NCBI GenBank assembly: GCA_001805245.1
Contig: MHEU01000073.1
Location: forward strand, 3,389-35,880
Length of the DNA stretch: 32,492 nucleotides
Source: Nitrospirae bacterium RIFCSPLOWO2_02_FULL_62_14
GTDB lineage: Bacteria; Nitrospirota; Nitrospiria; Nitrospirales; Nitrospiraceae
Direction of reading: 5' to 3'
Positions 1-13,972 of this stretch are shown here, one piece after another. The first letter of the stretch is position 1, and every line of letters starts with the position of its first letter. Position numbers and translations under genes: made by a program. The notes beneath the pieces are model-generated. The model made no database searches. It worked only from the letters and a program-made list of their open reading frames with translations, and was not told where the DNA came from.

Positions 1-834
1 CGGTGTCGGCTCTATCCCCGTTCCCAGCGGCTGCGAGTGACTGTCCAGCGACCGGGGATCGTTGTCCGGCAAGGTCTGCAAGAAATCCTGTATCTGCTGC
101 TGGGTCGGCTCCGGTGGAGGGGGAGGCGGGCCGAACGGCCGTGTGTGTCCATACACCCACCGACCACCTCGGGTTGATCCTTCACGTGCGAAGGTCACCG
201 GGTTTAGTAAGTCCACATTCTCAACGGTTAATTCAATAATCACCACATACGGAGGATTAGGAGGAAATACAGGTGGATTTAAGTTCGGCCTCTTGGGAAC
301 CTCTAACACCAACATGCCATCGTAAATAGTCGGATCACCGAAATAGAGATTCCCGTTATAGTTCACATAGCAGCTGCCCGGAACGGTCGGCGTCGTACAG
401 GCCTGAGAAGCAGGCACATTGATACCGGCCGGCACATCGGCGATGTAGGCCGGTGTCGCTGCCGCCTGCCCCGCCGCGTTTTTCACATCTTGCAAATCGT
501 TTGCGGAGTAGTAGGTCTGGTAGAGATACAGACCGGCTTGGACGCCTATGGCTGCCCACCCGACCGGCCCCGCGACTACCCGCATGGCGAGGGATACCGG
601 CGACACCGCTTTGGCCGCTGCCGCCACCGCGGCCGCCTTCGCGATCTTGTTCGCATGTTGATTCGCGATCCGATTCGCTTGATTGATGATCAGATCGTAT
701 TTGTTTGTCGAGCTGACCAGCGCGAACACAGGGCTGGCGATCAGCATCACGCTGACACCAGCCACCAGCCCTGCGTACGCCGCGATGGCTATGAGCGCCC
801 GGACAGGGCGCCGAAGATAAACGCCATGAGCCAC
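1..834 (-). CDS. Secreted inovirus-like structural/adsorption protein, 3' end outside window
   Basis: The frame is open from a GTG at 834 to the left edge (278 codons seen) and its end is missing. It starts with a clear Sec signal peptide: a basic n-region (LRRPVR), a long hydrophobic stretch and an A-x-A-type site (SPVFA) near residue 38. Next come an Ala/Lys/Asn-rich helical segment (residues 45-70), a hydrophobic segment near 75-95, a small Cys pair (QACTTPTVPGSC) and Pro-rich linkers (PPPPPPEP). The GTG lies inside the tiny upstream gene in another frame, as packed phage genes often do. By position after Rep, ssDNA-binding protein and a small membrane protein it matches the coat/adsorption slot of filamentous phages. 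I recognise no specific family, so the role is inferred from signal peptide and synteny. A non-phage secreted protein is possible. Confidence 0.6.
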   Translation of the reverse strand, partial: MAHGVYLRRPVRALIAIAAYAGLVAGVSVMLIASPVFALVSSTNKYDLIINQANRIANQHANKIAKAAAVAAAAKAVSPVSLAMRVVAGPVGWAAIGVQAGLYLYQTYYSANDLQDVKNAAGQAAATPAYIADVPAGINVPASQACTTPTVPGSCYVNYNGNLYFGDPTIYDGMLVLEVPKRPNLNPPVFPPNPPYVVIIELTVENVDLLNPVTFAREGSTRGGRWVYGHTRPFGPPPPPPEPTQQQIQDFLQTLPDNDPRSLDSHSQPLGTGIEPTP

Positions 835-869
835 AGCATCACCAATTGCAGTTCTTGATCAACGGTCAC
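789..869 (-). CDS. Tiny inovirus-like membrane protein, 26 aa
   Basis: This 26-residue ORF begins at a GTG that overlaps the stop codon of the ssDNA-binding protein gene (GTGA overlap), so translation is probably coupled. After a short polar start (MTVDQELQ) it is almost wholly hydrophobic (LVMLWLMAFIFGAL) and ends SGRS. One short transmembrane helix in exactly this place, between the ssDNA-binding gene and the coat genes, is what pVII/pIX-type minor coat proteins look like in filamentous phages. The start of the next gene lies inside it in another frame. It is too short for homology to settle; the call rests on position, overlap and hydrophobicity. Confidence 0.5.
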   Translation of the reverse strand: MTVDQELQLVMLWLMAFIFGALSGRS

Positions 870-1132
870 TTGCCGCTCAACGGCTGCAACGCCGCCAAGT
901 CCACGTAGAGCGTGCCCTTGAACTCCCGGAGATTCAGCGTCGCCGTGCAGACTTTCCCGACATGGTCCGTCACGGCCTTGGCCAGCACGAGCGAGTCCTG
1001 CGGAATGCTCGCCTGCAGCGATCCGGGATCTTCCCCTTGAACGAACAGATGGGCTCGGCGATACGTCTTGCCGTCCTTCCGGCTCACGTTCTCACCGATC
1101 CCGTTGACCATCACTTGCGCCACACATCGCAT
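866..1132 (-). CDS. Phage-type ssDNA-binding protein (helix-destabilising, pV-like)
   Basis: This 88-residue protein has a strong ribosome site (AAGGAGGGTG) just before ATG. Its composition suits a small OB-fold ssDNA binder: alternating beta-rich segments, basic patch SRKDGKTYRRAH near residues 17-29, and a second strand pair around LNLREFKGTLYVDLAALQ. It lies 15 bp downstream of the replication initiator and overlaps the next small gene, which is the gene II-V-VII order of filamentous phages. In that family the protein coats single-stranded progeny DNA and moves the phage from replication to packaging. The fold is inferred from size, charge and neighbours, since no invariant motif marks this family. 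Confidence 0.6.
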   Translation of the reverse strand: MRCVAQVMVNGIGENVSRKDGKTYRRAHLFVQGEDPGSLQASIPQDSLVLAKAVTDHVGKVCTATLNLREFKGTLYVDLAALQPLSGK

Positions 1133-1147
1133 GACACCCTCCTTTGG

Positions 1148-2140
1148 TTAGAATGAACTGCCCTGCAACACGTACACACGACCCGGATCAATGCGCTGCA
1201 ACAGATCGTAGTGGCGGGTCTTCCACCGATCTTTTCCCGCAGCGATCACCACATCCAAAAATTCGCGTCCGGCTCCTGGCGCAGCCTCCAGAACGGCAAG
1301 CATGGGACCCAGGGAATGCGCCGCCCACTGTTTGACGTCCTCAATCTTTTTCTGCGTCTTCTGAATCAGCAGCCGGGCCTTCGCAAACCCCTCCGTCAGC
1401 TCCTGCCACCACGACAAGACCGGCGCGGCACAGCGCATCCAAGCCTCGTCTTCCCGGCAGGTGTCCCGAAAATCCACGGACGACCGCAGCACCCCCACAA
1501 CAAATTGTCGGTATTTGTCCTCCGGCAAATGGGCCAGCGCGAGGCCGCAGGCATGGGCGCGGGCGTCCTTCAATTCCATTTCCCACCGCACCCAGGGGCC
1601 TTCGACCTCAACGCCCTTGCCGCGTTGTTCCAGAGCTTTGTCGTAGATTCTGATGAGGGTGTTGGACTGACGGGAGCCGAGATAGAGGGTGTACCCGGTG
1701 ATCTGATCTAACTCGTCGTTGCTCTCTTCGACTTTTCGCCACTTCTTGGACCGTTTGACCGCCTGGCCGGCCTTCACCGCACTTTCGACCTGTTCGACCG
1801 TCACGACGCCCTTGCGGTCATCCAGGGCGTTATCAATGCGGCCGAACTTGCCCCGCTGGTTAACGGTCCAACGGGCCAGAGCCTGCAATTTCTCAAACGA
1901 CCAGCCGGACACGACACCGCCCGAGCAGTCCACATGAACTTCCTGCGGGTTCCCTTTCTTTCCGGTCCCGATCCGAATTAGGCCACGGTTGCCGGCCGTT
2001 TGAAGATAGCCGATCGTATAGCCAAGGAAGCCCGAGGAGGCTTGAATGAAATCCCCCCCGAGCTGTTCCATGACGGTCTGAACCGCCATGGATGGGATCG
2101 TGAACCGGAGCCAATCGACTGATAGGCTGAATCCGCTCAT
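1148..2140 (-). CDS. Replication initiation protein, Rep_trans family (inovirus pII/RstA-like)
   Basis: The 330-residue protein begins at an ATG behind a strong ribosome site (AAGGAGGGCCT). Motifs typical of the Rep_trans (replication initiation factor) family are visible: N-terminal VDWLRFTIP, a GRIDNALDD segment near residues 99-107, the TLYLGSRQS...RIYDKALEQ block near 151-172 holding the likely catalytic Tyr, and VRWEMELKDARA near 184-195. Members nick one strand at the phage or plasmid origin and start rolling-circle replication. It is the second gene of the leftward phage operon, behind the HTH gene and before the ssDNA-binding gene. The gene looks intact and of normal length. A plasmid-type Rep is the alternative, but the following secreted protein points to an inovirus. 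Confidence 0.85.
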   Translation of the reverse strand: MSGFSLSVDWLRFTIPSMAVQTVMEQLGGDFIQASSGFLGYTIGYLQTAGNRGLIRIGTGKKGNPQEVHVDCSGGVVSGWSFEKLQALARWTVNQRGKFGRIDNALDDRKGVVTVEQVESAVKAGQAVKRSKKWRKVEESNDELDQITGYTLYLGSRQSNTLIRIYDKALEQRGKGVEVEGPWVRWEMELKDARAHACGLALAHLPEDKYRQFVVGVLRSSVDFRDTCREDEAWMRCAAPVLSWWQELTEGFAKARLLIQKTQKKIEDVKQWAAHSLGPMLAVLEAAPGAGREFLDVVIAAGKDRWKTRHYDLLQRIDPGRVYVLQGSSF

Positions 2141-2174
2141 AGGCCCTCCTTACTAATTTGCGCCCCCGTCTTAC

Positions 2175-2417
2175 TCACCGGGGGCGTTGGCGGGTCCCGC
2201 GCGGTCGGCTGTCGCCGACCCGCACGGCACCCTCTGCGCGTTTCCTCGGCGATCCGTTTGACCGCATCGCCTGGCGAACCACCTCCAGGTCGAACAGGAT
2301 CATCCGGCAGATCCGTTCCGCTGGAATTTCGCCTTTCCAATAGGCGCGACGAATTGACTTCTCACTGATCCCCAGCTCAAGCGACAACTCCTTCACTGAC
2401 ATGAGACTCTTTCTCAC
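2175..2417 (-). CDS. Excisionase-like MerR/HTH_17 DNA-binding protein
   Basis: Eighty residues from a GTG preceded by GGAGG. The first 55 residues are a textbook excisionase/HTH_17 fold: MSVKELSLELGISEKSIRRAYWKGEIPAERICRMILF, with the recognition helix in KSIRRAYWKG. The tail (RKRAEGAVRVGDSRPRGTRQRPR) is strongly basic and probably disordered. Such proteins act as excisionases or as regulators of phage early genes. It is the first gene of the leftward phage unit, 34 bp before rep, and an inverted repeat lies 20 bp upstream of its start, so autoregulation is likely. Whether it excises or represses cannot be told from sequence. Confidence 0.7.
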   Translation of the reverse strand: MRKSLMSVKELSLELGISEKSIRRAYWKGEIPAERICRMILFDLEVVRQAMRSNGSPRKRAEGAVRVGDSRPRGTRQRPR

Positions 2418-3096: not shown

Positions 3097-5208
3097 ATGG
3101 CAAAACTGACGCACGAACAAATCGAGGAAATCAAATCCTATCTCAACGTAGGGAAAGAACTTCCCGACGATTACAAGTATCTCCTCTTCCCGCCTGAAAA
3201 GTCTGAATGTGACCTTGTCTACAAGAGCAAAGAACGAGTCGAAGATGTCCTCTCTGAAACGTGGAGTGTGCCACTTCAGCCTATCAGAACCTTCAATCTG
3301 CCAAAAGGAAAGCCTGCACCGGAATGGAGTAATAGACTCATCTTTGGCGATAACTTGCAGGTTATGAAGAGGCTCTTAGACGATCCACAAATAAAGGGGC
3401 AAGTAAAACTGGTCTACATTGACCCACCATTTGCTACGAAACAAGAATTTCAAGGATCACATGAACAGAAAGCATACCAGGATAAGATCGCCGGTGCCGA
3501 GTTCATCGAGTTCCTTCGCAAGCGCCTCATCTTCCTCAAAAAACTACTTCATAGGGAAGGCAGCATTTTTGTCCACCTTGACCAGCGCAAGGCCCATTAC
3601 ATCAAGATTGTACTCGATGAAGTTTTTGGTGAAGAGAACTTCCGCAATGAAATAACCCTCCCAGGAAGAGCATCCAAGAACCTCCAGCAACAGTTCGACA
3701 CAATTACTCGATTAAATGTTAGGCACGACACCCTTTTTTGGTACAGCTCAAGCTCCGCCACACGCTTTAGTCAGCTATGGATTGAGAAACACAACGCAGG
3801 GAATCCTGAAGGCCACTGGCATCACTTCTGGAGTACAGCTAACCGGCCGTCAATGAGGTATAGGCTTTTTGGTCACAAGCCAACTACCGGTCAATGGACT
3901 TGGAAGGAAGAGCGGGCGAAACAAGCGGCTCAGAACCATGAGCGCTATTTCAGGGAAGGTGGCGGGAGAACACTTGCTGAGTACTGGAGAGATACAGGTT
4001 GTGCTCTGGAGTTCATCAGAAAGGATCCTGAAGACGGAAAGCCTCAATACTGGCGTTCTCCCGCAGAGACCCGACTTGCAGACACAGTTTGGGCTGGAGT
4101 GCCCATCTATGATAACTCCACGAAGTACCCAACTGAAAAGAACGAGGCACTACTTGCCCAAATCATCGAGTTAGCGTCTAAAAAAGACGACATCGTCCTC
4201 GACGCATTTGCCGGCTCTGGAACAACTTGCGCAGTCGCAGAGAAGCTTGGTAGGCAGTGGATTGGAATTGACTGCGGCAAGCTAGCCATTTACACAGTCC
4301 AGAAACGTCTGCTTAACCTTACCAGTAAAATTGGGAGTAAGGGACGACCGCTGTCTGCTAAACCGTTCACGCTCTTCAATGCCGGCCTATACGATTTCGC
4401 CCGTGTTCGTGATCTTCCGTGGGAAGACTATAGACTGTTTGCACTGCAGCTCTTTCAGATTCGTGATGAACCCCACAAACTCGCTGGCATACAGCTAGAC
4501 GGCTACAAAGCAACCAATGATGCACTTGTCTTTAACTTCAAAGAAAAAGAAGGAGTCCAGCTCGACGAAGGCTTTGTTGTAGATCTTCATCGACATTTGG
4601 GAGGTAAGGCTAGGAAGGAATTTTTCATCGTCGCGCCTGCTGCATGCGTCACATTTCTAGAAGACTACATAGATCGCGATAAAACACGTTATTATATTCT
4701 TCGCATTCCATACTCCATTATCGACGAATTGCACGACCGCCCCTTCCAGGAAATCCGCCAACCAGTGGATGAAACCCACGTCAATGATATTGTCGATGCT
4801 GTTGGGTTCGACTTTATCCAACCGCCAACACTCGAAGCGAAATACGTGCTATCAAAGTCCAAAAACGATCTCATCAGCTTAGCAACGATCAAGATCAGCC
4901 GGTTCGAAAGCCATGCCATGACAAAGAATCCGCGCGAGTTCAAGAACCGCGAAACGCTCTCGATGGTCATGGTCGACTACGACTACAAAGGCAATGGGGA
5001 TGGAATATTCAACCTAGATGCAGTCTTTTATCGAGATCAACTCGAAGAACATGGATGGGAAGTACGCTTGAATTCACGACTATTTGGGAAAAAGATAATG
5101 ATTATCTACATTGACATTTTTGGCAACGAGCTTCGCGAAATCAAAACCCCCGCCGACTTCGGAATTAAAAATCACACCAGGCTAAAAGACGCTAAGACAA
5201 ACGAATGA
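3097..5208 (+). CDS. mod: Type III restriction-modification methyltransferase (Mod)
   Basis: This 703-residue N6-adenine DNA methyltransferase has the beta-class motif order: LIFGDN (81-86), catalytic YIDPPF (107-112, DPPF variant of DPPY) and, much later, the AdoMet-binding DAFAGSGTT (369-377). Target recognition should lie in residues about 180-340 between the motifs. Residues 400-703 form a long extra C-terminal region of unknown role. Mod methylates the recognition sequence and gives the complex its specificity; its partner is the helicase-nuclease encoded 48 bp downstream on the same strand. Length and partner fit Type III systems, whose Mod proteins are usually a little shorter. Base composition is lower in GC than the core genes to the right, which suggests acquisition by transfer. 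Confidence 0.9.
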   Translation: MAKLTHEQIEEIKSYLNVGKELPDDYKYLLFPPEKSECDLVYKSKERVEDVLSETWSVPLQPIRTFNLPKGKPAPEWSNRLIFGDNLQVMKRLLDDPQIKGQVKLVYIDPPFATKQEFQGSHEQKAYQDKIAGAEFIEFLRKRLIFLKKLLHREGSIFVHLDQRKAHYIKIVLDEVFGEENFRNEITLPGRASKNLQQQFDTITRLNVRHDTLFWYSSSSATRFSQLWIEKHNAGNPEGHWHHFWSTANRPSMRYRLFGHKPTTGQWTWKEERAKQAAQNHERYFREGGGRTLAEYWRDTGCALEFIRKDPEDGKPQYWRSPAETRLADTVWAGVPIYDNSTKYPTEKNEALLAQIIELASKKDDIVLDAFAGSGTTCAVAEKLGRQWIGIDCGKLAIYTVQKRLLNLTSKIGSKGRPLSAKPFTLFNAGLYDFARVRDLPWEDYRLFALQLFQIRDEPHKLAGIQLDGYKATNDALVFNFKEKEGVQLDEGFVVDLHRHLGGKARKEFFIVAPAACVTFLEDYIDRDKTRYYILRIPYSIIDELHDRPFQEIRQPVDETHVNDIVDAVGFDFIQPPTLEAKYVLSKSKNDLISLATIKISRFESHAMTKNPREFKNRETLSMVMVDYDYKGNGDGIFNLDAVFYRDQLEEHGWEVRLNSRLFGKKIMIIYIDIFGNELREIKTPADFGIKNHTRLKDAKTNE

Positions 5209-5256: not shown

Positions 5257-7824
5257 ATGCGTGATGCTTCGCTTTTCAAGAATGCAGATCTTGTATTGAA
5301 GGTCACCTCTAACATTGACTCAACGATCTTTGACGTCACTAATTACGAAGCATTCCTGGAAGCTCTATGTGGGGAGCGCGAATATCAGCATCAGGCAATT
5401 CAAACAGCATGCAATTACCTCTTTGGTGGAGCGTATCGAAATCAGCGAGAACTTGCTGAGGAAAATTACAATGCCAACCCACACTTGCAAGAGAAATATG
5501 TAGATTTCCGAAGAATGGCTGCGCTGTTAGGATTTCCTAACCAGCTCGCTTGCTCGTTGGACCTCGCCACTGGTACAGGGAAAAGCTATGTGATGTATGG
5601 CATCGCTCGCATTGCTCTTGCTGCAGGTGTTGTTGACCGTGTTCTTGTCCTCTGCCCATCCAACACAATTGAAGCTGGGCTAGCCGATAAATTTACCTCG
5701 CTCTCTAGCGACAGAGACTTCACGAAGCTTCTTTCTAAGGAGGCAGTCTTTCGCAACCCACACATCATCCACGCAACTGAGACCGTCACACCGGGCGATA
5801 TCTGCATCGAGAACATCCACGCTACGTACAAACGCACAAAAAGTGCGATCGACAATTCATTTAATAATGGCAAGGGTGCACGCACCCTGGTGCTCTGCGA
5901 TGAAGCCCACCATATCTATACGTCCGAAGGTGACCAAGGTCTCAAAAAATGGAAAGAATTTCTGCTATCAGCTGATTTCGGATTCCGCTACATCGTGGGA
6001 CTATCAGGTACATGCTACATCGGCGATGAATACTTCCGTGATGTTGTCTATCGGTACTCACTGCGCCAGGCCTTCGAGGATGGAGTTGTTAAGGTAATTG
6101 ACTACGTCGCAGAAGACTCATCGGGCGATCAAAATGAAAAATTTCAGAAAATCTACGCTAATCATAAGGAAAACCAACGCAAGTACCGTCGCGTCAAACC
6201 GCTGACTGTCCTTATTACCAAGGACATCGCAGCATGTAAAAAACTTGAAGATGATCTCGTAGCATTTCTTGCTATGAAGGAGAAGATGCCCCGTGAGAAA
6301 GGAGCCAAAAAAATTCTACGAGTCCACACACCAAGAACGTCAGGACACGGCGCTAAGGAAGATAAGGCCATTGCGACAAACATCGAACGGCTCCGTAACG
6401 GCGAACCCGATACTAAGAACAGCCCAGTTGAATGGATAGTATCGGTAAGCATGCTGACTGAAGGATGGGATGCACAGAACGTCTTTCAAATTGTTCCTCA
6501 CGAGGAACGTGCCTTTAATTCTAAGCTTCTTGTAGCTCAAGTCCTCGGTCGCGGTCTCCGTGTTCCCCGCGAGTATAAGGGAGAACGCTCCGTAGTAACG
6601 GTATTCAACCACGACGCATGGAGCGGAAAGATCAAGCATCTAGTCGACGAGGTTCTCGAAGTCCAGAAGCGTATTTTTTCATTTCCGATCAGAAAGGAAC
6701 CGTCCTACGACTTTTCCGTTCACAGCATCAAATACGATAAATCCGAAGATGTTGTTGAGACCAAACAAACTTCCGAGTACGATTTTGACATGGAGTTTGT
6801 TAACTTTTCTGCTCAGAGAAAATCAGTCGATAAAACTACAACCTATCAACGAGCCGTGACTGAAGAACATCGTGAAAAGGTCACCCGCGTCGAACTGGAG
6901 ATGTTCGACATCGAACAAGTTGTTACAGACGTCCATAACAAGTTCAAAGCGATTGACCTAGAAACTAAGTCAAGTTATGCCAAGCGGTATCCGCGAGAAG
7001 CCATCCGCAAGCTCATACGGACATCACTTGACCGAATCGGGTATAGAGGCAACGAGATCAGTAAGGAAAATCGTCAGCGTGTCCTCAGCGCGTTTGGCAA
7101 TCTCAGGCGGCCTGGCAGCAAGAGCATTCGTTACCGTGTAACTGCGAAGAGTCTAACCATAGTTCACGCAATGGACAGGCACAAGGATAGCACCGCAATT
7201 GGTGCGGTTCGCCGCGGATGGGTAACTGTCTTTTATGATGATAATTCCAAGAAAGCTGACCCTGAACTTCAGCAGCTTCTTGAAGAACTGGAAGAAGATG
7301 AATCTAGACCAGTTTCAGCACTTCATAAGATTGAGAATGCCTTCCATTTCAAGACCTGCCTTTCGGTCGTTCTAGCAACATCCGAACCTGAGCGCCGTTT
7401 TGTACATAGGCTCGTGAACCCAGAGAATGCTTCTCGAGTCTCTGCATGGATTAAGAATGCCGACACTGGTTTCTATGGCATCGAATACTCCTACTCACGT
7501 GGAGAGTACTCGAAGCGAGCAGTCTTCAATCCAGACTTCTTCATGCAGCTCGGCGAGTCGGACATCTTGGTGGTCGAAATCAAAGCCAACGAGGAGATTT
7601 CCGATCCCTCACCCGATAACAAAGGAAAACGCCGAGCGGCTATCGAGCACTTCGACAATCTCAATAATCTCCAAAAGGACATCCGTTATCATTTCTGCTT
7701 TTTAACACCCAATGACTATGATCTTTTCTTTGCAGAACTTCGTGAAGGTAGAGCAATGAAGTTCCAGAGCCAACTTGACGTTGCCCTCAACGGGAGCGGT
7801 CCGGCCCGCGTTCGCAATACCTAG
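5257..7824 (+). CDS. res: Type III restriction enzyme helicase-nuclease subunit (Res)
   Basis: The 855-residue protein is a superfamily 2 translocase fused to a nuclease. Visible motifs in order: Walker A ATGTGKS (104-110), DEAH box (215-218), SGT motif III (250-252), SMLTEGWD motif V (398-405), motif VI QVLGRGLRVPR (428-438), and a C-terminal PD-(D/E)xK nuclease with D760, E774 and K776 (NPDFF...VVEIKANEE). With Mod it cuts DNA having unmethylated, suitably oriented sites. All key residues are present, so the system looks active. The ATG has a modest ribosome site (AGAGG), and the 48-bp gap to mod implies one transcript. It ends 33 bp before the convergent TPR gene, with no terminator seen between them. 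Confidence 0.9.
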   Translation: MRDASLFKNADLVLKVTSNIDSTIFDVTNYEAFLEALCGEREYQHQAIQTACNYLFGGAYRNQRELAEENYNANPHLQEKYVDFRRMAALLGFPNQLACSLDLATGTGKSYVMYGIARIALAAGVVDRVLVLCPSNTIEAGLADKFTSLSSDRDFTKLLSKEAVFRNPHIIHATETVTPGDICIENIHATYKRTKSAIDNSFNNGKGARTLVLCDEAHHIYTSEGDQGLKKWKEFLLSADFGFRYIVGLSGTCYIGDEYFRDVVYRYSLRQAFEDGVVKVIDYVAEDSSGDQNEKFQKIYANHKENQRKYRRVKPLTVLITKDIAACKKLEDDLVAFLAMKEKMPREKGAKKILRVHTPRTSGHGAKEDKAIATNIERLRNGEPDTKNSPVEWIVSVSMLTEGWDAQNVFQIVPHEERAFNSKLLVAQVLGRGLRVPREYKGERSVVTVFNHDAWSGKIKHLVDEVLEVQKRIFSFPIRKEPSYDFSVHSIKYDKSEDVVETKQTSEYDFDMEFVNFSAQRKSVDKTTTYQRAVTEEHREKVTRVELEMFDIEQVVTDVHNKFKAIDLETKSSYAKRYPREAIRKLIRTSLDRIGYRGNEISKENRQRVLSAFGNLRRPGSKSIRYRVTAKSLTIVHAMDRHKDSTAIGAVRRGWVTVFYDDNSKKADPELQQLLEELEEDESRPVSALHKIENAFHFKTCLSVVLATSEPERRFVHRLVNPENASRVSAWIKNADTGFYGIEYSYSRGEYSKRAVFNPDFFMQLGESDILVVEIKANEEISDPSPDNKGKRRAAIEHFDNLNNLQKDIRYHFCFLTPNDYDLFFAELREGRAMKFQSQLDVALNGSGPARVRNT

Positions 7825-7857: not shown

Positions 7858-9666
7858 CTAGCTAATATTTCTTAAAAGATCAGCGGCCTGCTTCTTGTAA
7901 AGCTCCGTCTGACTGCGCGTGGAAAGAACTTCCTCAAGAAGCTTCTTAGCCCTTGCCGTCTTGCCTTGATCTAGAAAATATCGGCCCAATTCGAGGTTCT
8001 TCTTCTGACGAACTTGCGTTCTTACTTCTTCATCTTTGGCAATGTTGATCGCGCGGTTGTAAAACCGAGCGCCTTCTTCTAGGGCACCCTCTTTAATTAG
8101 AAGAAGACCACGGGTTGCATTGATATGCACGCTCTCCACAGCATCTTGCTCGTTAATACGATCCAAAACCTCCCTCGCCTTTTCTATATCTCCTTTCATG
8201 AGATAATTGTAGGCGAGGTTATTCAAAAGCATTGAGTTCGTCGGAGCATAAGAGAGTCCCTCTTTGAGAGCCGTAATTGCGCCACCATAGTCACTTTTTA
8301 CCTCCGAGAGAATGTAGCTAATTCCAGAGCATGAACTCGTATCCCTCGGCTCTAGCGTTTTGACTTTAATAAGGTAACGAGAAGCGGTCTCGTAGTCCCC
8401 AAGATAGAAGTAGTAGCGGGCAAGCAAGTTATTGAAGCGCGCTTGTCTGCCTGGACGCTTGGAAACCTCTGAAACATCCTTCTCTAAGACCTGGATTAGA
8501 GGCAAAGCCTCATCGTACCTATTGTCCTTTAAGTAGAGAGTGACCAGATTATAATGAGCATCAACCACTACCCCGGGAGATTCCTTAACACCTTTCCTAA
8601 AGAACTCCTCCGCTTTTTCTCTATTTCCCAAGGCTGAATATACACAACCGAGGTTGTTGTAGTTCCGCGCCAGATCCCTAGCCCTCGCTTCTGTACATTC
8701 ATAGAGATCCTGAACTCGCAATAAACATTTCAGGCAAGCACGGTAATTCTTGGAATAGAATAACGCCTCTCCTAAGATTCCTAGAAGCTGAACGTCTCCA
8801 CTGTTTAATCCTTCATATTCACTCAGCAACTCCGCCGCTTGAGTGTATTGCTTTCCAAGCAGATAAACCCTCGCCAACCATTTGGCTGCCTCAATATTCT
8901 GCCTATCCGAAGACAAGCTTGAGGCGAAGTGTCGAATCGCCTTCTCGTAATTCCTCTCCTTTACGTAGCAGATGGCGATATTGAAATTGGGCTTTGATGC
9001 CCCAGGTTCCAAAGTGAGCGCTTTCTTAAAATAGCCTAGCGCAGCTCTCACATTGCCTTTGAGTGTGTAGACTATCCCAAGATTGTTGAGAGCCGAGGGA
9101 TTGGTTTCAACAGACTCTTTAAGCTGCTGCTCCGCCTTTTCAAGATATGTCTTATCCCCTCGAGCAAGTGCCAAACGAAGATAAATCTCACCAAGACTCT
9201 CGTGAATGACAGATCGACGAGGATATTGCTTTAGAAGATCTGCATAAATGGACAACGCACCTTCAAGATTCCCCCTCACTAACTGTGCCTTGGCTAAATT
9301 AAGACGAGCCGAAGTTAAATCACTCTTTATGCTAAGCGCTTTTTCAAAGTAGCGGATCGCTTCACCAACTTTTCCAGCATTAAGATAATTGAGGCCAACA
9401 CTATTCAGAAGAAAAGGACTGTCCGGGACCCTCTCTAACGCATGTTGAGCTGAGCGAAGTTGTTGATTAACTATTTCCAAAACAAGAGTACGCTTTGCTG
9501 TTCTCTCTCCAGCTTCGACCCACACTGATTCCGCTTGATCAGAATCCGAGACTAGCCGACTGCTTGGCATAAATGGATTTCCAGGAGTGGAAACGAGAGA
9601 GAACGTTTCCCTGGAATCTCGTGTCAGTTCTCTTTGCTCGTTTGCTTCATCTACAAGTTTCAACAT
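7858..9666 (-). CDS. Cytoplasmic TPR-repeat protein, third gene of the XRE-kinase-TPR operon
   Basis: A 602-residue protein built almost wholly of tetratricopeptide repeats, by eye about 13-15 from residue 55 to the end. Examples are NSVGLNYLNAGKVGEAIRYFEKALSI, NNLGIVYTLKGNVRAALGYFKKAL and NNLGCVYSALGNREKAEEFFRKGV. There is no signal peptide or transmembrane segment. The first 50 residues are Ser/Thr-rich and not TPR-like (RDSRETFSLVSTPGNPF), a plausible target for the kinase encoded upstream. ATG follows AGGAAG at good spacing, 21 bp after the kinase stop, so the two are co-transcribed. TPR arrays bind partner proteins; here it is probably a scaffold, sensor or substrate acting with the kinase. 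No enzymatic domain is visible. Confidence 0.85.
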   Translation of the reverse strand: MLKLVDEANEQRELTRDSRETFSLVSTPGNPFMPSSRLVSDSDQAESVWVEAGERTAKRTLVLEIVNQQLRSAQHALERVPDSPFLLNSVGLNYLNAGKVGEAIRYFEKALSIKSDLTSARLNLAKAQLVRGNLEGALSIYADLLKQYPRRSVIHESLGEIYLRLALARGDKTYLEKAEQQLKESVETNPSALNNLGIVYTLKGNVRAALGYFKKALTLEPGASKPNFNIAICYVKERNYEKAIRHFASSLSSDRQNIEAAKWLARVYLLGKQYTQAAELLSEYEGLNSGDVQLLGILGEALFYSKNYRACLKCLLRVQDLYECTEARARDLARNYNNLGCVYSALGNREKAEEFFRKGVKESPGVVVDAHYNLVTLYLKDNRYDEALPLIQVLEKDVSEVSKRPGRQARFNNLLARYYFYLGDYETASRYLIKVKTLEPRDTSSCSGISYILSEVKSDYGGAITALKEGLSYAPTNSMLLNNLAYNYLMKGDIEKAREVLDRINEQDAVESVHINATRGLLLIKEGALEEGARFYNRAINIAKDEEVRTQVRQKKNLELGRYFLDQGKTARAKKLLEEVLSTRSQTELYKKQAADLLRNIS

Positions 9667-9687
9667 AAAATTTCTTCCTATGCAGCA

Positions 9688-10788
9688 TCAGTTGATGACT
9701 TGAGCAACAGCCCTGCGGCGAGCCTTGAATTGAGCTCTCCTGGTTCGCACAAGATCGGCAAGTAATATTCTTGTCATAATCTCGATCTGCATGAATACCC
9801 AGTCAAATCGCACCATCCGTTTTCGATAGTCCAGAGCAGCCAAGCCCTTATACAATCGGTTCAGTCTGATCCGTATGGACTCCGGCACTGTTCCATCCGG
9901 CGCAATATCTTCAATGTTTGGCAAGGGACATGCCGCCTCTAACGCTCCAATCGATGCGTCGAAGTATTGCTTCCTCTTGCTAACATCATCGACTTTACTA
10001 AATGGCTGAATCATTGTGTCAGTGATCTCTTGGATTGAGTACAGGTACCCACTTAGTTCAGCCTTGGTAAACAACTCGAAGAGTATCGCTCCCAATGAAT
10101 ATATATCCGAGGCAAACACAATGTCTGCATTTGAGTCCAGACAGCATAACAACTCAGGAGCAGTATGCGTCAAAGCTCCGACCGGTTCATGGTAGATGGC
10201 CATTGGCGAAGGAACTGCTTTATCCTCGAAGAGCACTTTCGCAGTCCCTAGGTCACCTACCACAACGTAACTTCCTGTCATGACAAAACAATTCTGCGGC
10301 CTCAAATCCCTGTGACAGACCTTGGCTGCGTGCAGTCGCTGAACACCTTTGCATACCTCCCTGAAATAGATCAGACTCCGCAGAGGACCATACTTCTTCT
10401 TCGGTTGCTGGATATATTCGAATAAGCTAAACCTCGCCTGCTCCAATGAGAAAAAACGGAGCGGAATGGGCAACACTGCACCTCCGGGAAGGGAGACAGA
10501 AAAGTTAAAGGCACTAACCCCCTCAAACAACTGAACAACGTTTGGTTCACCCTTAAATTTTGCAAGAATCGCTGCCTCTCTATCAAAGCACTCGTGACGA
10601 TATTTTTCTGGCACCCAGGGATCATCGAACTTAAGCACCACGGTCTGTGCCATCACCTGGTCATACGCAGTAAATGTGAGTGAAAAGTTTCCCCCGCCCC
10701 CTGGACTTGTGCTAATCCGTTGGAGCTTGCTGTACCGACCATTAACGGAGGCTTGATTTTCGAGAAGCTGCAGAAGAGTGTCGTTCAT
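9688..10788 (-). CDS. Serine/threonine protein kinase (Hanks type), second gene of the operon
   Basis: A 366-residue soluble protein with a near-complete eukaryotic-like kinase domain: glycine-rich loop SPGGGGNFS (28-36), ATP-binding Lys in VLKF (K53), helix-C Glu near E71, catalytic HRDLRPQN (159-166), metal-binding DLG (179-181, in place of DFG), TAPE (209-212) and ASDIYSLGAILFELF (226-240). The invariant residues are present, so it should be active. The last 90 residues are helical with no recognised domain, and no membrane anchor or PASTA repeat is seen, unlike most bacterial housekeeping kinases. The start ATG has GGGGAG upstream and lies inside the end of the XRE gene (47-bp overlap), implying coupled translation. 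The target is unknown; the adjacent TPR protein is the obvious candidate. Confidence 0.9.
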   Translation of the reverse strand: MNDTLLQLLENQASVNGRYSKLQRISTSPGGGGNFSLTFTAYDQVMAQTVVLKFDDPWVPEKYRHECFDREAAILAKFKGEPNVVQLFEGVSAFNFSVSLPGGAVLPIPLRFFSLEQARFSLFEYIQQPKKKYGPLRSLIYFREVCKGVQRLHAAKVCHRDLRPQNCFVMTGSYVVVGDLGTAKVLFEDKAVPSPMAIYHEPVGALTHTAPELLCCLDSNADIVFASDIYSLGAILFELFTKAELSGYLYSIQEITDTMIQPFSKVDDVSKRKQYFDASIGALEAACPLPNIEDIAPDGTVPESIRIRLNRLYKGLAALDYRKRMVRFDWVFMQIEIMTRILLADLVRTRRAQFKARRRAVAQVIN

Positions 10789-11083
10789 TCAGTCGGCTCC
10801 CCAAGCCAGAAAATTCCTTCCTTAGGAAAGCAACAGCCTCCGTAGGATTATCTCGAAGGATCTTCAAAACATCTTCCGGTATCTTATTCGCTGAAAGAAG
10901 TAGCTCTTCCTTGCTGTATTTAAAGTAATGAGACATTCTCTCTACAAGTTCTTCGGACGGGTTCACTTTATTATTCTCAAGCTTGCTCAAATAGGTATAG
11001 TTGACGTCTAGCTCTGGAGCCAAACGCTTAATACTCAAGCCAGATCTTTCCCTCAACATCTTCAGAAGCGAGGCAAAATTCAT
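10742..11083 (-). CDS. XRE-family HTH regulator, first gene of the kinase-TPR operon
   Basis: This 113-residue protein opens with a lambda-repressor-like HTH: FASLLKMLRERSGLSIKRLAPELDVNYTYLSKLENNKVNPSEELVERMSHYF (residues 3-54). A short helix IPEDVLKILRDNPTEAVAFLRKEF follows, a tail seen in many XRE regulators of accessory genes. It probably binds the perfect 22-bp palindrome 17 bp upstream of its own start and so represses the operon. The ATG sits only about six bases after the -10-like TATAAA and has no ribosome site, which suggests a leaderless message. Its 3' end overlaps the kinase gene by 47 bp. Confidence 0.88.
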   Translation of the reverse strand: MNFASLLKMLRERSGLSIKRLAPELDVNYTYLSKLENNKVNPSEELVERMSHYFKYSKEELLLSANKIPEDVLKILRDNPTEAVAFLRKEFSGLGSRLNERHSSAASRKSSLR

Positions 11084-11122
11084 GGTTCTTTTATACTACG
11101 GGGTTGACAATGTTGTCAACCC
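11084..11122 (-). promoter_or_regulatory. Promoter with perfect 22-bp palindromic operator, XRE-kinase-TPR operon
   Basis: GGGTTGACAA-TG-TTGTCAACCC (11101-11122) is a perfect 10-bp inverted repeat with a 2-bp centre. On the minus strand it contains a consensus -35 (TTGACA), followed after 18 bases by TATAAA and then, six bases on, by the XRE ATG. Transcription would start at or near the A of ATG. The palindrome covers the -35, so a bound dimer would block RNA polymerase. It also carries TTGACA on the plus strand, facing the short gene at 11182. Confidence 0.75.
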
Positions 11123-11181: not shown

Positions 11182-11415
11182 ATGGAGCTTTATGTATTTG
11201 CTGATTCACTAAAAATGGCTTTTCGCCAGGACATAAAAATATTCCTCCTCGAAAAGGAATTGAAGATAACGATTGCCCGTAAAACCGCCTGGATCGGTAG
11301 TGACGGTCGACTGACGGGCGAATCAGGGGTCGGTACGGGTGCTCTTGAGATAGGCGTAGACGTAGGTCGTGTCGTCGTCCCCACCACCGGGGCCGCCATC
11401 GTGGCCAGCGTCTAG
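11182..11415 (+). CDS. Short hypothetical protein divergent from the XRE operon
   Basis: A 77-residue ORF with an excellent ribosome site (GAAAGGAGATCAAG-ATG). Its N-terminal half reads like a real protein (MELYVFADSLKMAFRQDIKIFLLEKELKIT). Its last 31 codons lie antisense to the better supported gene at 11323-11622 and are rich in Gly/Val, so the true 3' end is doubtful. It is divergent from the XRE gene and shares the 22-bp palindrome region. No family is recognised. It may be a genuine small accessory gene, or the start of one truncated by rearrangement. Confidence 0.4.
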   Translation: MELYVFADSLKMAFRQDIKIFLLEKELKITIARKTAWIGSDGRLTGESGVGTGALEIGVDVGRVVVPTTGAAIVASV

Positions 11416-11622
11416 ATAAGCCTTTTCGACCGTTCGTGCGACCTGGTGGGCGGTAGCTTGTCGAAAGATCCAAGAGTCTTTTACTTTATCAACACTGTGA
11501 TCGTTAAAAAGCCTTGCGTTAGCGTCTGAGGCGATTCCGACATACCATGAGGCGTTGGTTCCACCACACTGTTTCATATGAGCATTGATATCCGCAATGA
11601 TTTGTTGTGCGCTGTAAGTCAT
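11323..11622 (-). CDS. Small protein with GIY-YIG-like core
   Basis: A 99-residue protein with a strong ribosome site (GGAGGACAGCAACA-ATG). It contains ASWYVGIASDANARLFNDH (residues 24-42), which resembles the YVGI...R...H core of GIY-YIG domains, then ATAHQVARTVEKAYLDAG and a glycine-rich HDGGPGGGDDDTTYVYAYLK. The Glu in ARTVEKAYL could be the family's catalytic Glu, but this is unproven. Proteins of this style appear to me to be conserved small accessory proteins. It lies within the island between the XRE operon and a tRNA-like gene, alone on its transcript. Function is unknown; a nuclease or nucleic-acid-binding role is a guess from the core motif. Confidence 0.65.
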   Translation of the reverse strand: MTYSAQQIIADINAHMKQCGGTNASWYVGIASDANARLFNDHSVDKVKDSWIFRQATAHQVARTVEKAYLDAGHDGGPGGGDDDTTYVYAYLKSTRTDP

Positions 11623-11695
11623 TGTTGCTGTCCTCCGTTTATTGTAAAGTGCAAGACATACCAGTCGCGTGCAGCGTCTAATCAGCCTCTACATG

Positions 11696-11727
11696 GGGTT
11701 GACAAACAGGCGGGAATACGGGATAAT
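11696..11727 (+). promoter_or_regulatory. Consensus sigma70-type promoter carrying the XRE half-site
   Basis: TTGACA (11699-11704), exactly 17 bases, GATAAT (11722-11727). The -35 lies in GGGTTGACAA (11696-11705), identical to one arm of the 22-bp palindrome at 11101. It points rightward, antisense to the tRNA-like gene, and no plus-strand gene follows closely, so its product, if any, would be an antisense or short RNA. Confidence 0.45.
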
Positions 11728-11751
11728 TCCACTACCTGTAGCGTATTTAGG

Positions 11752-11823
11752 AGCCCCTGGCGGGATTCGAGCCCGCAAAAACCCCCTGCGAGGGAGGGTG
11801 CTTTATCATTAAGCTACAGGGGC
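11752..11823 (-). tRNA. tRNA-Arg(UCG)-like gene with unusual loops
   Basis: A 72-base cloverleaf folds fully: acceptor GCCCCTG/CAGGGGC, D stem GCTT/AAGC, anticodon stem CCCTC/GGGGG with one G-U pair, T stem GCGGG/CCCGC. The anticodon loop CCTCGCA gives UCG (Arg) if positions are counted normally. Several conserved bases are off: C33 instead of U33, a pyrimidine at 37, no GG in the 7-base D loop, C54 in the T loop, and no encoded CCA. Perfect stems with odd loops suggest an element-borne tRNA or a tRNA mimic rather than a housekeeping gene. Confidence 0.65.
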
Positions 11824-11834
11824 ATTCAGTTCTT

Positions 11835-11870
11835 GAACGGCGTTCTGGACGGCAATCCGGGACGCCGTTC
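11835..11870. terminator. Hairpin after the HARE-HTH-like gene
   Basis: GAACGGCGT (11835-11843) and ACGCCGTTC (11862-11870) pair perfectly, with a second short GGA/TCC pairing inside. It begins just past the stop codon of the leftward gene at 11875. On the plus strand it is followed by GATTTTAT, so the T-run serves the rightward direction better. It may be bidirectional or an RNA processing hairpin. Confidence 0.45.
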
Positions 11871-11874
11871 GATT

Positions 11875-12357
11875 TTATATAGGCTCCTCCTCGTACAGGT
11901 GGTCCTCTTCCGGTTCCGGCCCTTCATCGAACGGATTATCGTCAATAAGCGTCCATCCGATCAGTGCGAAAACGCCAGGCCTCGCCAGCTTAAACCGCTT
12001 TTTCTGTTTCACGAGTCCATACAGCGTGCCCCGCACGGACGGCACGGCAGCCGAACATCCCAAGGCGCGGATCAGTGGAATGATCTGCTGCATGTTCAAC
12101 GGCTTTCCGGCCTGTTTGAGAACTTCCTCGCAGGCATTCGGAATGCTCGGCGGTGTTTTCTCGACTGGTTCACTCTTGACGATGGACTCTATGACTTGCC
12201 TGATGCCAGAGGGCTTGAACAGCACAGGCTCTTTTTCTTGTTCAGTTTCAAGAATACGGAGAGTCCGCTCGAGGGCAGTAATGTCCGCTTCGAGTTTAGA
12301 AACGAGATTTTTTTTACGGCTGATCTGGACTTCGATCTGATCACGGTATGAAGGCAT
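11875..12357 (-). CDS. HARE-HTH-like winged-helix protein with N-terminal coiled coil
   Basis: A 160-residue protein with a good ribosome site (GAGGAGCAGCC-ATG). Residues 1-42 form a charged coiled coil (QISRKKNLVSKLEADITALERTLRILETEQ). Residues about 73-133 (PNACEEVLKQAGKPLNMQQIIPLIRALG...VRGTLYGLVKQKKRFKLARPGVFAL) match the layout of HARE-HTH/winged-helix domains, found in RNA polymerase delta subunit and in some restriction and chromatin proteins. The tail is acidic (DDNPFDEGPEPEEDHLYEEE), also recalling delta-like proteins. The role is probably DNA or RNA-polymerase binding. It stands alone near the right end of the island. The domain call is by eye. Confidence 0.65.
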   Translation of the reverse strand: MPSYRDQIEVQISRKKNLVSKLEADITALERTLRILETEQEKEPVLFKPSGIRQVIESIVKSEPVEKTPPSIPNACEEVLKQAGKPLNMQQIIPLIRALGCSAAVPSVRGTLYGLVKQKKRFKLARPGVFALIGWTLIDDNPFDEGPEPEEDHLYEEEPI

Positions 12358-12382
12358 GGCTGCTCCTCATGTCCACGGAGGA

Positions 12383-12413
12383 AGTATAACATGAAAGTGG
12401 GAGTGTAGTGCAA
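12383..12413 (-). promoter_or_regulatory. Probable promoter of the HARE-HTH-like gene
   Basis: On the minus strand TTGCAC, 19 bases, TATACT, 26 bases upstream of the start codon. The spacing is slightly long, but the -10 matches five of six consensus bases. Confidence 0.4.
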
Positions 12414-12500
12414 GCGTTACTTACACTGCGTGGAAAAAATCATGCCTACAAGATATTGTACCACGGATTAAGTGTGTCCAAAATGATACTATTTAGTGTG

Positions 12501-12590
12501 TCAGCGGGCGGCGGCAGCGTTCTTGGCGATCTTGATACGCTGTTTTTCGGTAAGGGCTTTCTTGCGGGCTGGTCCACCTTTCAATCCACC
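12501..12590 (-). pseudogene. Fragment of a KGG-repeat-type small basic protein
   Basis: In one minus-strand frame the sequence reads GLKGGPARKKALTEKQR followed by IKIAKNAAAAR and a stop. This resembles the conserved C-terminal motif of small basic proteins with KGGxARAxxLTPEERxEIAKKAAxARW. No start codon or plausible N-terminus joins it, and the open frame upstream is not protein-like, so only the tail seems to remain. Confidence 0.35.
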
Positions 12591-12890: not shown

Positions 12891-12897
12891 TTAAAAG
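12882..12897. other. Putative recombination core of the island right end
   Basis: CTTTT-CTGATT-AAAAG: 5-bp inverted arms around a 6-bp centre, lying exactly where tRNA-Lys homology ends, in the anticodon loop. Tyrosine recombinases commonly use anticodon-loop symmetry of this size as the crossover site. The boundary is seen; the mechanism is inferred. Confidence 0.45.
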
Positions 12898-12928
12898 GGC
12901 GATGCTCTACCGACTGAGCTACCGGCTC
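12891..12928 (-). pseudogene. tRNA-Lys(UUU) 5' half, truncated at position 38
   Basis: Reading leftward from 12928, bases 1-38 of a tRNA-Lys are intact: acceptor strand GAGCCGG, D arm GCTC...GAGC, then anticodon loop CTTTTAA with UUU. The next bases (TCAGA) do not pair with the TCGCC stem strand, and no T arm or 3' acceptor strand follows. The gene is cut immediately 3' of the anticodon loop. It probably marks the point where the island to the left entered the chromosome. Confidence 0.75.
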
Positions 12929-13004
12929 TTCGAACAATAGCTGACAGCGTTCAGCAATCAGCCTTCATCTGGGCAAGCTAGCTTACCATCGGCGCGGTTC
13001 TTTG

Positions 13005-13056
13005 GCCAACGGCTTTTTCCTGGCTTAACGGCGCGCGGACGGCGGGTATTCATCGG
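13005..13056 (-). pseudogene. Decayed copy of the purA 3' end
   Basis: AACGGCTTT, 8 bases, TTAACGGCG, then TTCATCGG occur here in the same order and nearly the same spacing as at the true purA end (13956-14008). The homologous TTA is the purA stop codon on the minus strand. The copy abuts the end of the PIN toxin gene, so vapBC-like genes lie between relic and intact purA tails. Confidence 0.5.
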
Positions 13057-13460
13057 TTCTCGTCTTGGCGCTTGCGCAGGTATCGAGCAGGAGGAAGGAT
13101 CAACACTCCTTCTACCGTCTGACCGTAGTAACGGCCAAAATCCCTGACGTCCCCGCTCAGAAGATGAGTTGCGCGAGCATTGATGGCAGCCGCAAAGATC
13201 GGACGGTCGCTCTCCGGCAGGTCAATGCCGGCCAACTGCGGCGGATCGGCAGCGGCAACAGAAACTATCTCCATGGACGCACAGAGCTGTTCCAGATCTC
13301 TTCGTTGCCGGTCAGTCGAAAGGTTCCGGCGAGCTTCCTCCACTGCATAGGCAGACGTAATCAAGGCGACATGATGCAGCTTGAAGAGTAGACGAAGGCC
13401 GGCAGCATGCCGGTAGGCGGCCGAAAACAGCACGTTGGCATCCAGGAAGACCCGATCCAC
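13050..13460 (-). CDS. PIN-domain ribonuclease toxin (VapC-like)
   Basis: A 136-residue PIN-domain protein. Acidic residues expected for the metal site are visible: D7 in FLDANVLFSAAY, the Glu pair in YAVEEARRN (about 41-42), D in LPESDRPIFAAA (near 85), and D in LLSGDVRDFGRYYG (103 and 106). Such toxins cut RNA, often tRNA, and are held in check by a DNA-binding antitoxin. The gene begins 38 bp after the AbrB-type antitoxin gene, so the pair forms a toxin-antitoxin operon. Its stop codon lies within the decayed purA tail, which suggests it arrived with the insertion that made that relic. Confidence 0.85.
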   Translation of the reverse strand: MDRVFLDANVLFSAAYRHAAGLRLLFKLHHVALITSAYAVEEARRNLSTDRQRRDLEQLCASMEIVSVAAADPPQLAGIDLPESDRPIFAAAINARATHLLSGDVRDFGRYYGQTVEGVLILPPARYLRKRQDENR

Positions 13461-13498
13461 GCGCTAGCCCACAGTATTCATGATGGTAATAAGGCGGG

Positions 13499-13795
13499 CT
13501 AGGCTTTGGTCGGGTTGTGGTGAGGAATGGTGTCTGGGTCGAGGCCGAGCTTTTGGACTTCCTTTCGCGCGCGCGCGTAGTCGTTCACGTCAACGGCGTT
13601 GGATAGCAAAAACTCCGCACGGCGTTCTGCTGTATATATTTCTACCGGCAGGGCTGCAGCCGGACGGATCAACACCCCCTCTGCGCGTTCTTCTGCGATC
13701 ACAAGAGAGCCTTCCTTGATCCCGTATCGGCGACGCAGCGAGGCAGGGATCACCACCGTTCCTCGCTTTCCGACCTTGCTTGTCTCGGCAGACAT
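13499..13795 (-). CDS. AbrB/MazE-type antitoxin
   Basis: Ninety-eight residues from the ATG at 13795, chosen because GGAGGTG precedes it; an upstream in-frame ATG would add an unlikely 42-residue extension. The N-terminus SKVGKRGTVVIPASLRRRYGIKEGSLVIAEERAEGVLIRPA is a classic SpoVT/AbrB swapped-hairpin DNA-binding domain. The C-terminal half (AEFLLSNAVDVNDYARARKEVQKLG) should wrap the PIN toxin. It probably represses its own promoter alone or with toxin. It directly follows purA on the same strand and is absent from usual purA surroundings, in keeping with acquisition as a cassette. Confidence 0.85.
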   Translation of the reverse strand: MSAETSKVGKRGTVVIPASLRRRYGIKEGSLVIAEERAEGVLIRPAAALPVEIYTAERRAEFLLSNAVDVNDYARARKEVQKLGLDPDTIPHHNPTKA

Positions 13796-13972
13796 GATGA
13801 CGCACCTCCGGAGAACGACTGAATATCTGAATGTCTGACTTTCAGGCACATTCTGCCTTTTCTGGGAGAGAACTGCAAGCAGGAAAGAATTCGATATGGC
13901 CCCGCAAGGGAGGAGCTTCATGGCAAAGCCCTCCGAACTTTGCGACGGTCCGCTGAACGGCTTTGTCTGGGA

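Follow-up and report, generated by a model that had tools for sequence, protein, structure and literature searches.

Organisation of the operon

The window, by which we mean the whole analysed stretch of 32,492 nucleotides, contains genes for an XRE-family repressor, a Hanks-type Ser/Thr kinase and a TPR protein. They form one tight operon on the minus strand in the order XRE-kinase-TPR. The XRE and kinase genes overlap by 47 bp and the kinase gene is separated from the TPR gene by 21 bp. The same trio in the same order is carried by G049, a Hainich groundwater Nitrospiraceae bin from another genus of the same family. The operon and its control region comprise the following features.

7858..9666, minus strand: TPR protein, 602 aa (many TPR models in Pfam; PDC-M71B 3e-23 in PADLOC)
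9688..10788, minus strand: Hanks-type Ser/Thr kinase, 366 aa (Pkinase 2.5e-23, Pfam)
10742..11083, minus strand: XRE-family repressor, 113 aa (HTH_3 1e-11, Pfam; orthologue in G049)
11090..11119, minus strand: promoter, TTGACA (11119-11114), 18 bp, TATAAA (11095-11090), read from the sequence
11101..11122, no strand: perfect 22-bp palindrome GGGTTGACAnnnnTGTCAACCC = GGGTTGACA-nnnn-TGTCAACCC, presumed XRE operator, conserved in G049

A previous sequence-only reading had described a tightly coupled trio, and its coordinates, overlap and gap were all confirmed. The top PADLOC matches of the XRE protein were HTH_VI and a control protein; CapH was matched with an E-value of 3.5e-6.

Promoter and presumed operator

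The ATG of the XRE gene lies 6 nt after the TATAAA box as read from the sequence, which implies a near-leaderless mRNA. The palindrome overlaps the -35 box of this promoter. In G049 the promoter spacing is identical, the flanks of the palindrome have diverged and the DNA upstream is at background identity. A search of 175 family genomes with the 22-bp pattern resulted in exactly two exact matches, one ahead of each trio, and the reversed control of the pattern gave 0 matches in the same genomes. The inner 18-bp form occurs once in its own genome, even at 2 mismatches. No operator copy was found at the restriction genes or the inovirus genes described below.

Such a dedicated, conserved putative operator on the promoter makes it very probable that the XRE protein represses its own operon, as the sequence-only reading had supposed, and we consider it strong evidence for self-regulation. 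Binding of the XRE protein to the palindrome is what we infer from this arrangement.

The second copy of the trio

In G049 the XRE and kinase genes overlap by 50 bp and the kinase-TPR gap is again 21 bp. The kinases are 71% and the TPR proteins 58.5% identical between the two copies, and the XRE orthologue is present. The G049 kinase frame is interrupted near codon 81, either by a real frameshift or by an assembly error. The trio adjoins cstA on a 9-kb contig, on which no defence gene and no phage gene was recognised and whose end cuts off the 3' side of the trio.

Among 100 relatives and 396 phylum genomes, an orthologous kinase was found in G049 only, giving a very patchy distribution (2/396 phylum genomes). 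A scan of genome contigs with two narrow peptide patterns also retrieved only G049, the absence elsewhere being weak evidence. This brings the known copies of the divergent form to two. With the same partners, order and near-identical spacing in a second genome, the trio is, judged by its sequence, a real conserved unit beyond chance.

The island and its other genes

The operon is located in DNA with a GC content of 0.44-0.50 (approximately 2.5-12.9 kb of the window), compared to 0.57-0.65 beyond. The main features around it are listed below; the two restriction genes are given as context and lie outside the operon.

1..2417, minus strand: inovirus-like prophage end with an attachment-type protein, an SSB-like protein of 88 aa, a Rep_trans initiator (5e-38, Pfam) and an excisionase-like HTH protein
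3097..5208, plus strand: N6/N4 DNA methyltransferase (N6_N4_Mtase 2.3e-40, Pfam)
5257..7824, plus strand: ResIII-type restriction helicase, converging on the TPR gene (ResIII 4.8e-16, Pfam)
12891..12929, minus strand: right island edge, 5' half of a tRNA-Lys, 39 nt (100% match to the intact tRNA-Lys of G002)

A Zot-like ATPase is encoded just outside the window (Zot phrog_197, 5.9e-26), and the replication initiator corresponds to phrog_453. The prophage on contig C73 (1-5805, L015) also has a Xer-type recombinase, and several of its genes are partly N-masked. In G002, which belongs to the same genus, the tRNA-Lys is whole (L059, 1670-1745) and has, by eye, another phage-type integrase beside it, so this tRNA gene looks like a recurrent insertion site. 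A search for direct repeats on either side of the island gave none, as the contig begins within the element. An inovirus prophage lodged in tRNA-Lys is accompanied by the operon and by what is probably a type III restriction system. The AT-rich island ending at a broken tRNA that had been noted before is thereby traced to an inovirus element.

The earlier assignment of the adjoining genes to a type III restriction system was borne out for the methylase and the ResIII helicase; the type itself is only likely, the single best PADLOC match of the methylase being a type II model. No close relative of the helicase was found in 60 relatives searched, a set that did not include G049. Nothing indicates that the restriction system belongs to the trio, as it has no operator copy and is read in the opposite direction.

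Some further elements were seen nearby. An odd tRNA at 11750-11823 (minus strand; Rfam 52.5 bits) was assigned a two-base anticodon by ARAGORN; its loop, CCTCGCA by eye, lacks U33, and it is possibly decayed or element-borne. A 99-aa frame at 11323-11622 (minus strand), WYVGIASDANARLFNDH, appears faintly GIY-YIG-like by eye and was matched by nothing in Pfam, NCBIfam or PHROG. The region from the cut tRNA to purA contains what by eye is a VapBC-type pair (13050-13921, minus strand), made up of a PIN-domain gene and an AbrB-like gene; G002 lacks this stretch.

Canonical PDC-M71 loci

The PADLOC candidate system PDC-M71 consists of a kinase (PDC-M71A) and a TPR protein (PDC-M71B). The PDCs reportedly originate from Payne et al. 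2024 (bioRxiv). They stem from a guilt-by-embedding study, and the class is reported to be largely unvalidated (PMC12988326). A literature search for PDC-M71 by name returned nothing, and no mechanism was found.

We read seven canonical loci, a small sample, locus by locus: four in Nitrospirota (G006, G037, G300 and G353) and three on plasmids of Arthrobacter, Deinococcus and Rhizobium. In all seven the kinase gene precedes the TPR gene and the two are coupled, with spacings from a 4-bp overlap to a 7-bp gap. G006 has an XRE gene directly ahead of the kinase gene (XRE-kinase-TPR) and the Rhizobium plasmid a MarR gene (MarR-kinase-TPR). The other loci have no regulator gene ahead of the kinase gene, G353 being cut by the contig end.

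The pair of G037 is located between a G2P-type Rep gene and a tyrosine integrase gene, and that of G300 neighbours a serine recombinase gene. On the plasmids, the neighbours are a PDC-S02 nuclease (Arthrobacter), a Pycsar cyclase and effector (Deinococcus), and an integrase and TniQ (Rhizobium). For G353 and G006, no neighbour was clearly a mobile or defence gene. The Pycsar cyclase and its 2TM effector (L029, 12654-14982) are IS-split and approximately 3-5 kb away from the Deinococcus pair. In L024 a protein with SH3 and metallo-beta-lactamase domains (11272-12570, minus strand; best PADLOC matches LmuA and PDC-M48B) adjoins a canonical pair.

The kinase

The catalytic residues Lys53, Glu71, His159, Asp161, Asn166, Asp179 and Gly181 are all present and nearly invariant across a ten-row family alignment, so the active site is intact, as previously proposed. 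The G049 kinase, split in two by its frameshift, entered this alignment and the tree as one sequence spliced at the overlap; what is said here of the window kinase's active site does not depend on it. The motifs comprise HRD (159-161) and DLG (179-181), the latter being DFG in G049. The glycine loop has the unusual sequence GGNFS, near the GGxFS of most PDC-M71A kinases, and a C-terminal extension of about 100 aa follows the kinase domain.

Housekeeping kinases of the PknB/Stk1 type carry PASTA repeats and a membrane segment. In contrast, no PASTA or other extra domain of the window kinase was matched in Pfam, in agreement with the earlier reading, and the protein is soluble-looking, a membrane segment having been judged by eye only. 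It reached 55 of 450 bits with the NCBIfam model PknB_PASTA_kin.

With the PDC-M71A profile the window kinase scored 43.5 bits and the G049 kinase 53.2, compared to up to 48.9 for ordinary kinases. The window kinase is therefore not above ordinary kinases, and the match covers 112/352 profile positions. In the kinase tree both divergent kinases group with PDC-M71A, apart from the housekeeping kinases, with support of 92/78 and a long-branch warning. By these measures the kinase is too diverged for firm placement. Its best-scoring PADLOC models were MAD6 and PD-T4-6. A sequence search against the PDB retrieved the catalytic cores of RAF and JAK, which was uninformative. Viral contigs yielded no relative, and phage and plasmid searches yielded only generic kinases of <35% identity. 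An AlphaFold model calculated from a 7-row alignment had a pLDDT of 39.

The TPR protein

Residues 1-64 of the TPR protein are predicted to be disordered and the remainder to form a TPR superhelix (model pLDDT 77). The alignments for folding were made without the plasmid loci. The fold of the model matched generic TPR superhelices only, e.g. OGT, and a plasmid search with the protein returned only generic TPR proteins. In both the window and G049 the N-terminus is rich in Ser and Thr (22-25% versus 9-10%); such a segment is absent in the canonical PDC-M71 relatives. Ser/Thr richness in both copies and the predicted disorder make residues 1-64 a possible kinase substrate, the role that the earlier reading had suggested for the N-terminus.

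Because TPR proteins match one another, a null distribution over 100 genomes was taken for the PDC-M71B profile scores. The window protein scored 75.8 bits and the G049 protein 65.2, whereas the best ordinary TPR protein reached 28.9; true PDC-M71B proteins score 424-521 bits. The match comprises TPR residues ~416-584 and positions 321-497 of the 515 in the profile, i.e. the C-terminal third. By these scores the relationship of the TPR protein to PDC-M71B is a specific one and exceeds general TPR likeness.

Relation to PDC-M71

The trio shares with PDC-M71 the order of kinase and TPR genes on the same strand, a kinase of similar length (351-367 aa) with its catalytic residues kept, the GGxFS glycine loop of most members, the C-terminal TPR homology and a mobile context. 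A regulator gene is sometimes found ahead in PDC-M71 as well (XRE in G006, MarR in Rhizobium). However, the matches cover no more than about one third of either profile (112/352 and 173/515 positions), with no full-length match to either. PDC-M71 kinases are mostly HQD, whereas the window kinase is of the HRD/RD type. The window TPR protein is ~65-105 aa longer and has a different, disordered and Ser/Thr-rich N-terminus, and both divergent copies carry an XRE gene and operator.

On these comparisons the trio is a diverged, previously uncatalogued relative of PDC-M71; as it fails to match over most of both profiles, we do not file it as a member. The sequence-only reading had not recognised the trio as a named system. 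Its TPR score of 75.8 bits now ties it to a PADLOC candidate, and the order XRE-kinase-TPR already exists in the canonical locus of G006. 'Undescribed system' is too strong a term, because a kinase-TPR candidate of the same kind had already been catalogued.

Comparison with known kinase and repressor systems

The KKP module (PfkA-PfkB-PfpC) of Pf prophages defends against lytic phages and acts through MvaU, a host silencer, so kinases on filamentous elements can serve both defence and prophage control (PMC11341870). Like the trio, it is a Ser/Thr kinase module that filamentous-phage elements carry in the vicinity of restriction and TA genes. KKP has two kinases with CSD and FHA domains and a PP2C phosphatase antitoxin, whereas the window operon has a single kinase; a scan of the operon and its neighbours showed no CSD, FHA or phosphatase.

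PD-T4-6, Stk2 and the MADS component MAD6 (PADLOC, NCBIfam) share the Hanks kinase domain but have neither a TPR partner nor an XRE gene, and MAD6 is a single component gene within a large methylation system. The kinase scored 57 bits, far under the NCBIfam cut-off of 460. Membership in HipBA was rejected: an XRE gene is present, but the kinase is a Pkinase (PF00069) with no HipA match in Pfam.

In CapK/CapS the kinase phosphorylates a repressor and thereby releases it ahead of an immune operon; CapK/CapS and CapH/CapP share with the trio a repressor on a promoter palindrome (PMC13373217). CapK is a GHKL protein, CapS a STAS-wHTH protein and CapP a peptidase, whereas the window has a Pkinase and an XRE protein whose function is predicted only. 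In their defining parts, KKP and CapK/CapS are not homologous to the trio.

Proposed function

Most likely, the operon encodes a self-repressed kinase switch with a TPR sensor or adaptor, probably anti-phage and directed against phages or at prophage control. The XRE protein would bind the palindrome and keep expression low. The TPR protein would bind the kinase as a sensor or adaptor and present it with targets or a phage cue. Infection, prophage activation or loss of the repressor would tip the balance, and the kinase would then phosphorylate host (or phage) proteins until growth or phage production stops, as for KKP or Stk2. We infer that phages can trigger the operon.

The defence reading draws on the trio and operator in a second genus, the PDC-M71B score, canonical loci on plasmids or near recombinases and defence genes, the grouping of the kinase with PDC-M71A and the precedent of KKP on filamentous prophages. 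Counted against it are the PDC-M71A score of the kinase, which lies within the range of ordinary kinases, the long-branch warning of the tree, the largely unvalidated status of the PDCs, the frameshifted kinase of G049, the existence of only two copies and the lack of a recognised defence gene on the G049 contig. Neither a phosphatase nor another antitoxin can be seen in the operon and neighbouring genes. On balance we give only slightly better than an even chance to a mobile regulator-kinase-TPR module of PDC-M71 type, a kinase switch that would stop growth or phage production.

An alternative to cell defence is prophage control: a host silencer could be the substrate of the kinase, and the module would then tune the resident inovirus or rival prophages in the way that KKP acts via MvaU (PMC11341870). 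The inovirus genes directly beside the cargo and the G037 pair between Rep and integrase genes speak for this idea; against it, the G049 contig has no recognised phage gene, the remaining canonical loci are plasmid-borne or neighbour other defence genes, and the phage genes have no operator copy. We regard it as rather unlikely, though the best of the alternatives. A more elaborate form of the switch appears doubtful. Here the trio would be a separate subfamily whose three proteins make up one phosphorylation circuit. The substrates of the kinase would be its own XRE repressor and/or the disordered TPR tail, so that a phage cue, sensed by the TPR protein, would both switch the kinase on and lift the repression of the operon; inovirus islands would carry the circuit as protection against competing phages.

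Housekeeping signalling also makes use of kinases that pair with TPR scaffolds, e.g. PknG. The operon might be ordinary signalling cargo, its kinase and TPR scaffold serving in stress signalling without any role in phage defence, and no defence phenotype is known. Its very patchy distribution (2/396 phylum genomes), the low-GC mobile island and relatives that travel with mobile and defence genes make this improbable. Much the same holds for a HipBA-like addiction module that stabilises the island, with the XRE protein as antitoxin and repressor and the kinase as toxin. The leading XRE gene that overlaps the kinase gene by 47-50 bp, the promoter palindrome typical of autoregulated modules and the island location would suit it. 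The kinase fold is nevertheless Pkinase and not HipA, the large TPR partner is unexplained, and most canonical relatives have no XRE gene, so the XRE protein looks like an add-on regulator and not a necessary neutraliser; we find this improbable too. It is highly improbable that the operon is an accessory of the adjacent, convergent restriction genes that controls methylase and helicase, since the operator lies only ahead of the XRE gene, canonical relatives have no restriction partner and none is present on the 5' side of the G049 trio, whose 3' side is cut by the contig end.

As a relative of PDC-M71, the diverged trio widens this family, itself a computed candidate. A DNA-binding regulator is repeatedly found ahead of the kinase-TPR pair (three loci with XRE, one with MarR), and the defined 22-bp putative operator allows direct tests of the regulation. 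Being carried on a filamentous-phage island, the operon may be a second kinase-based system of such elements, beside KKP.
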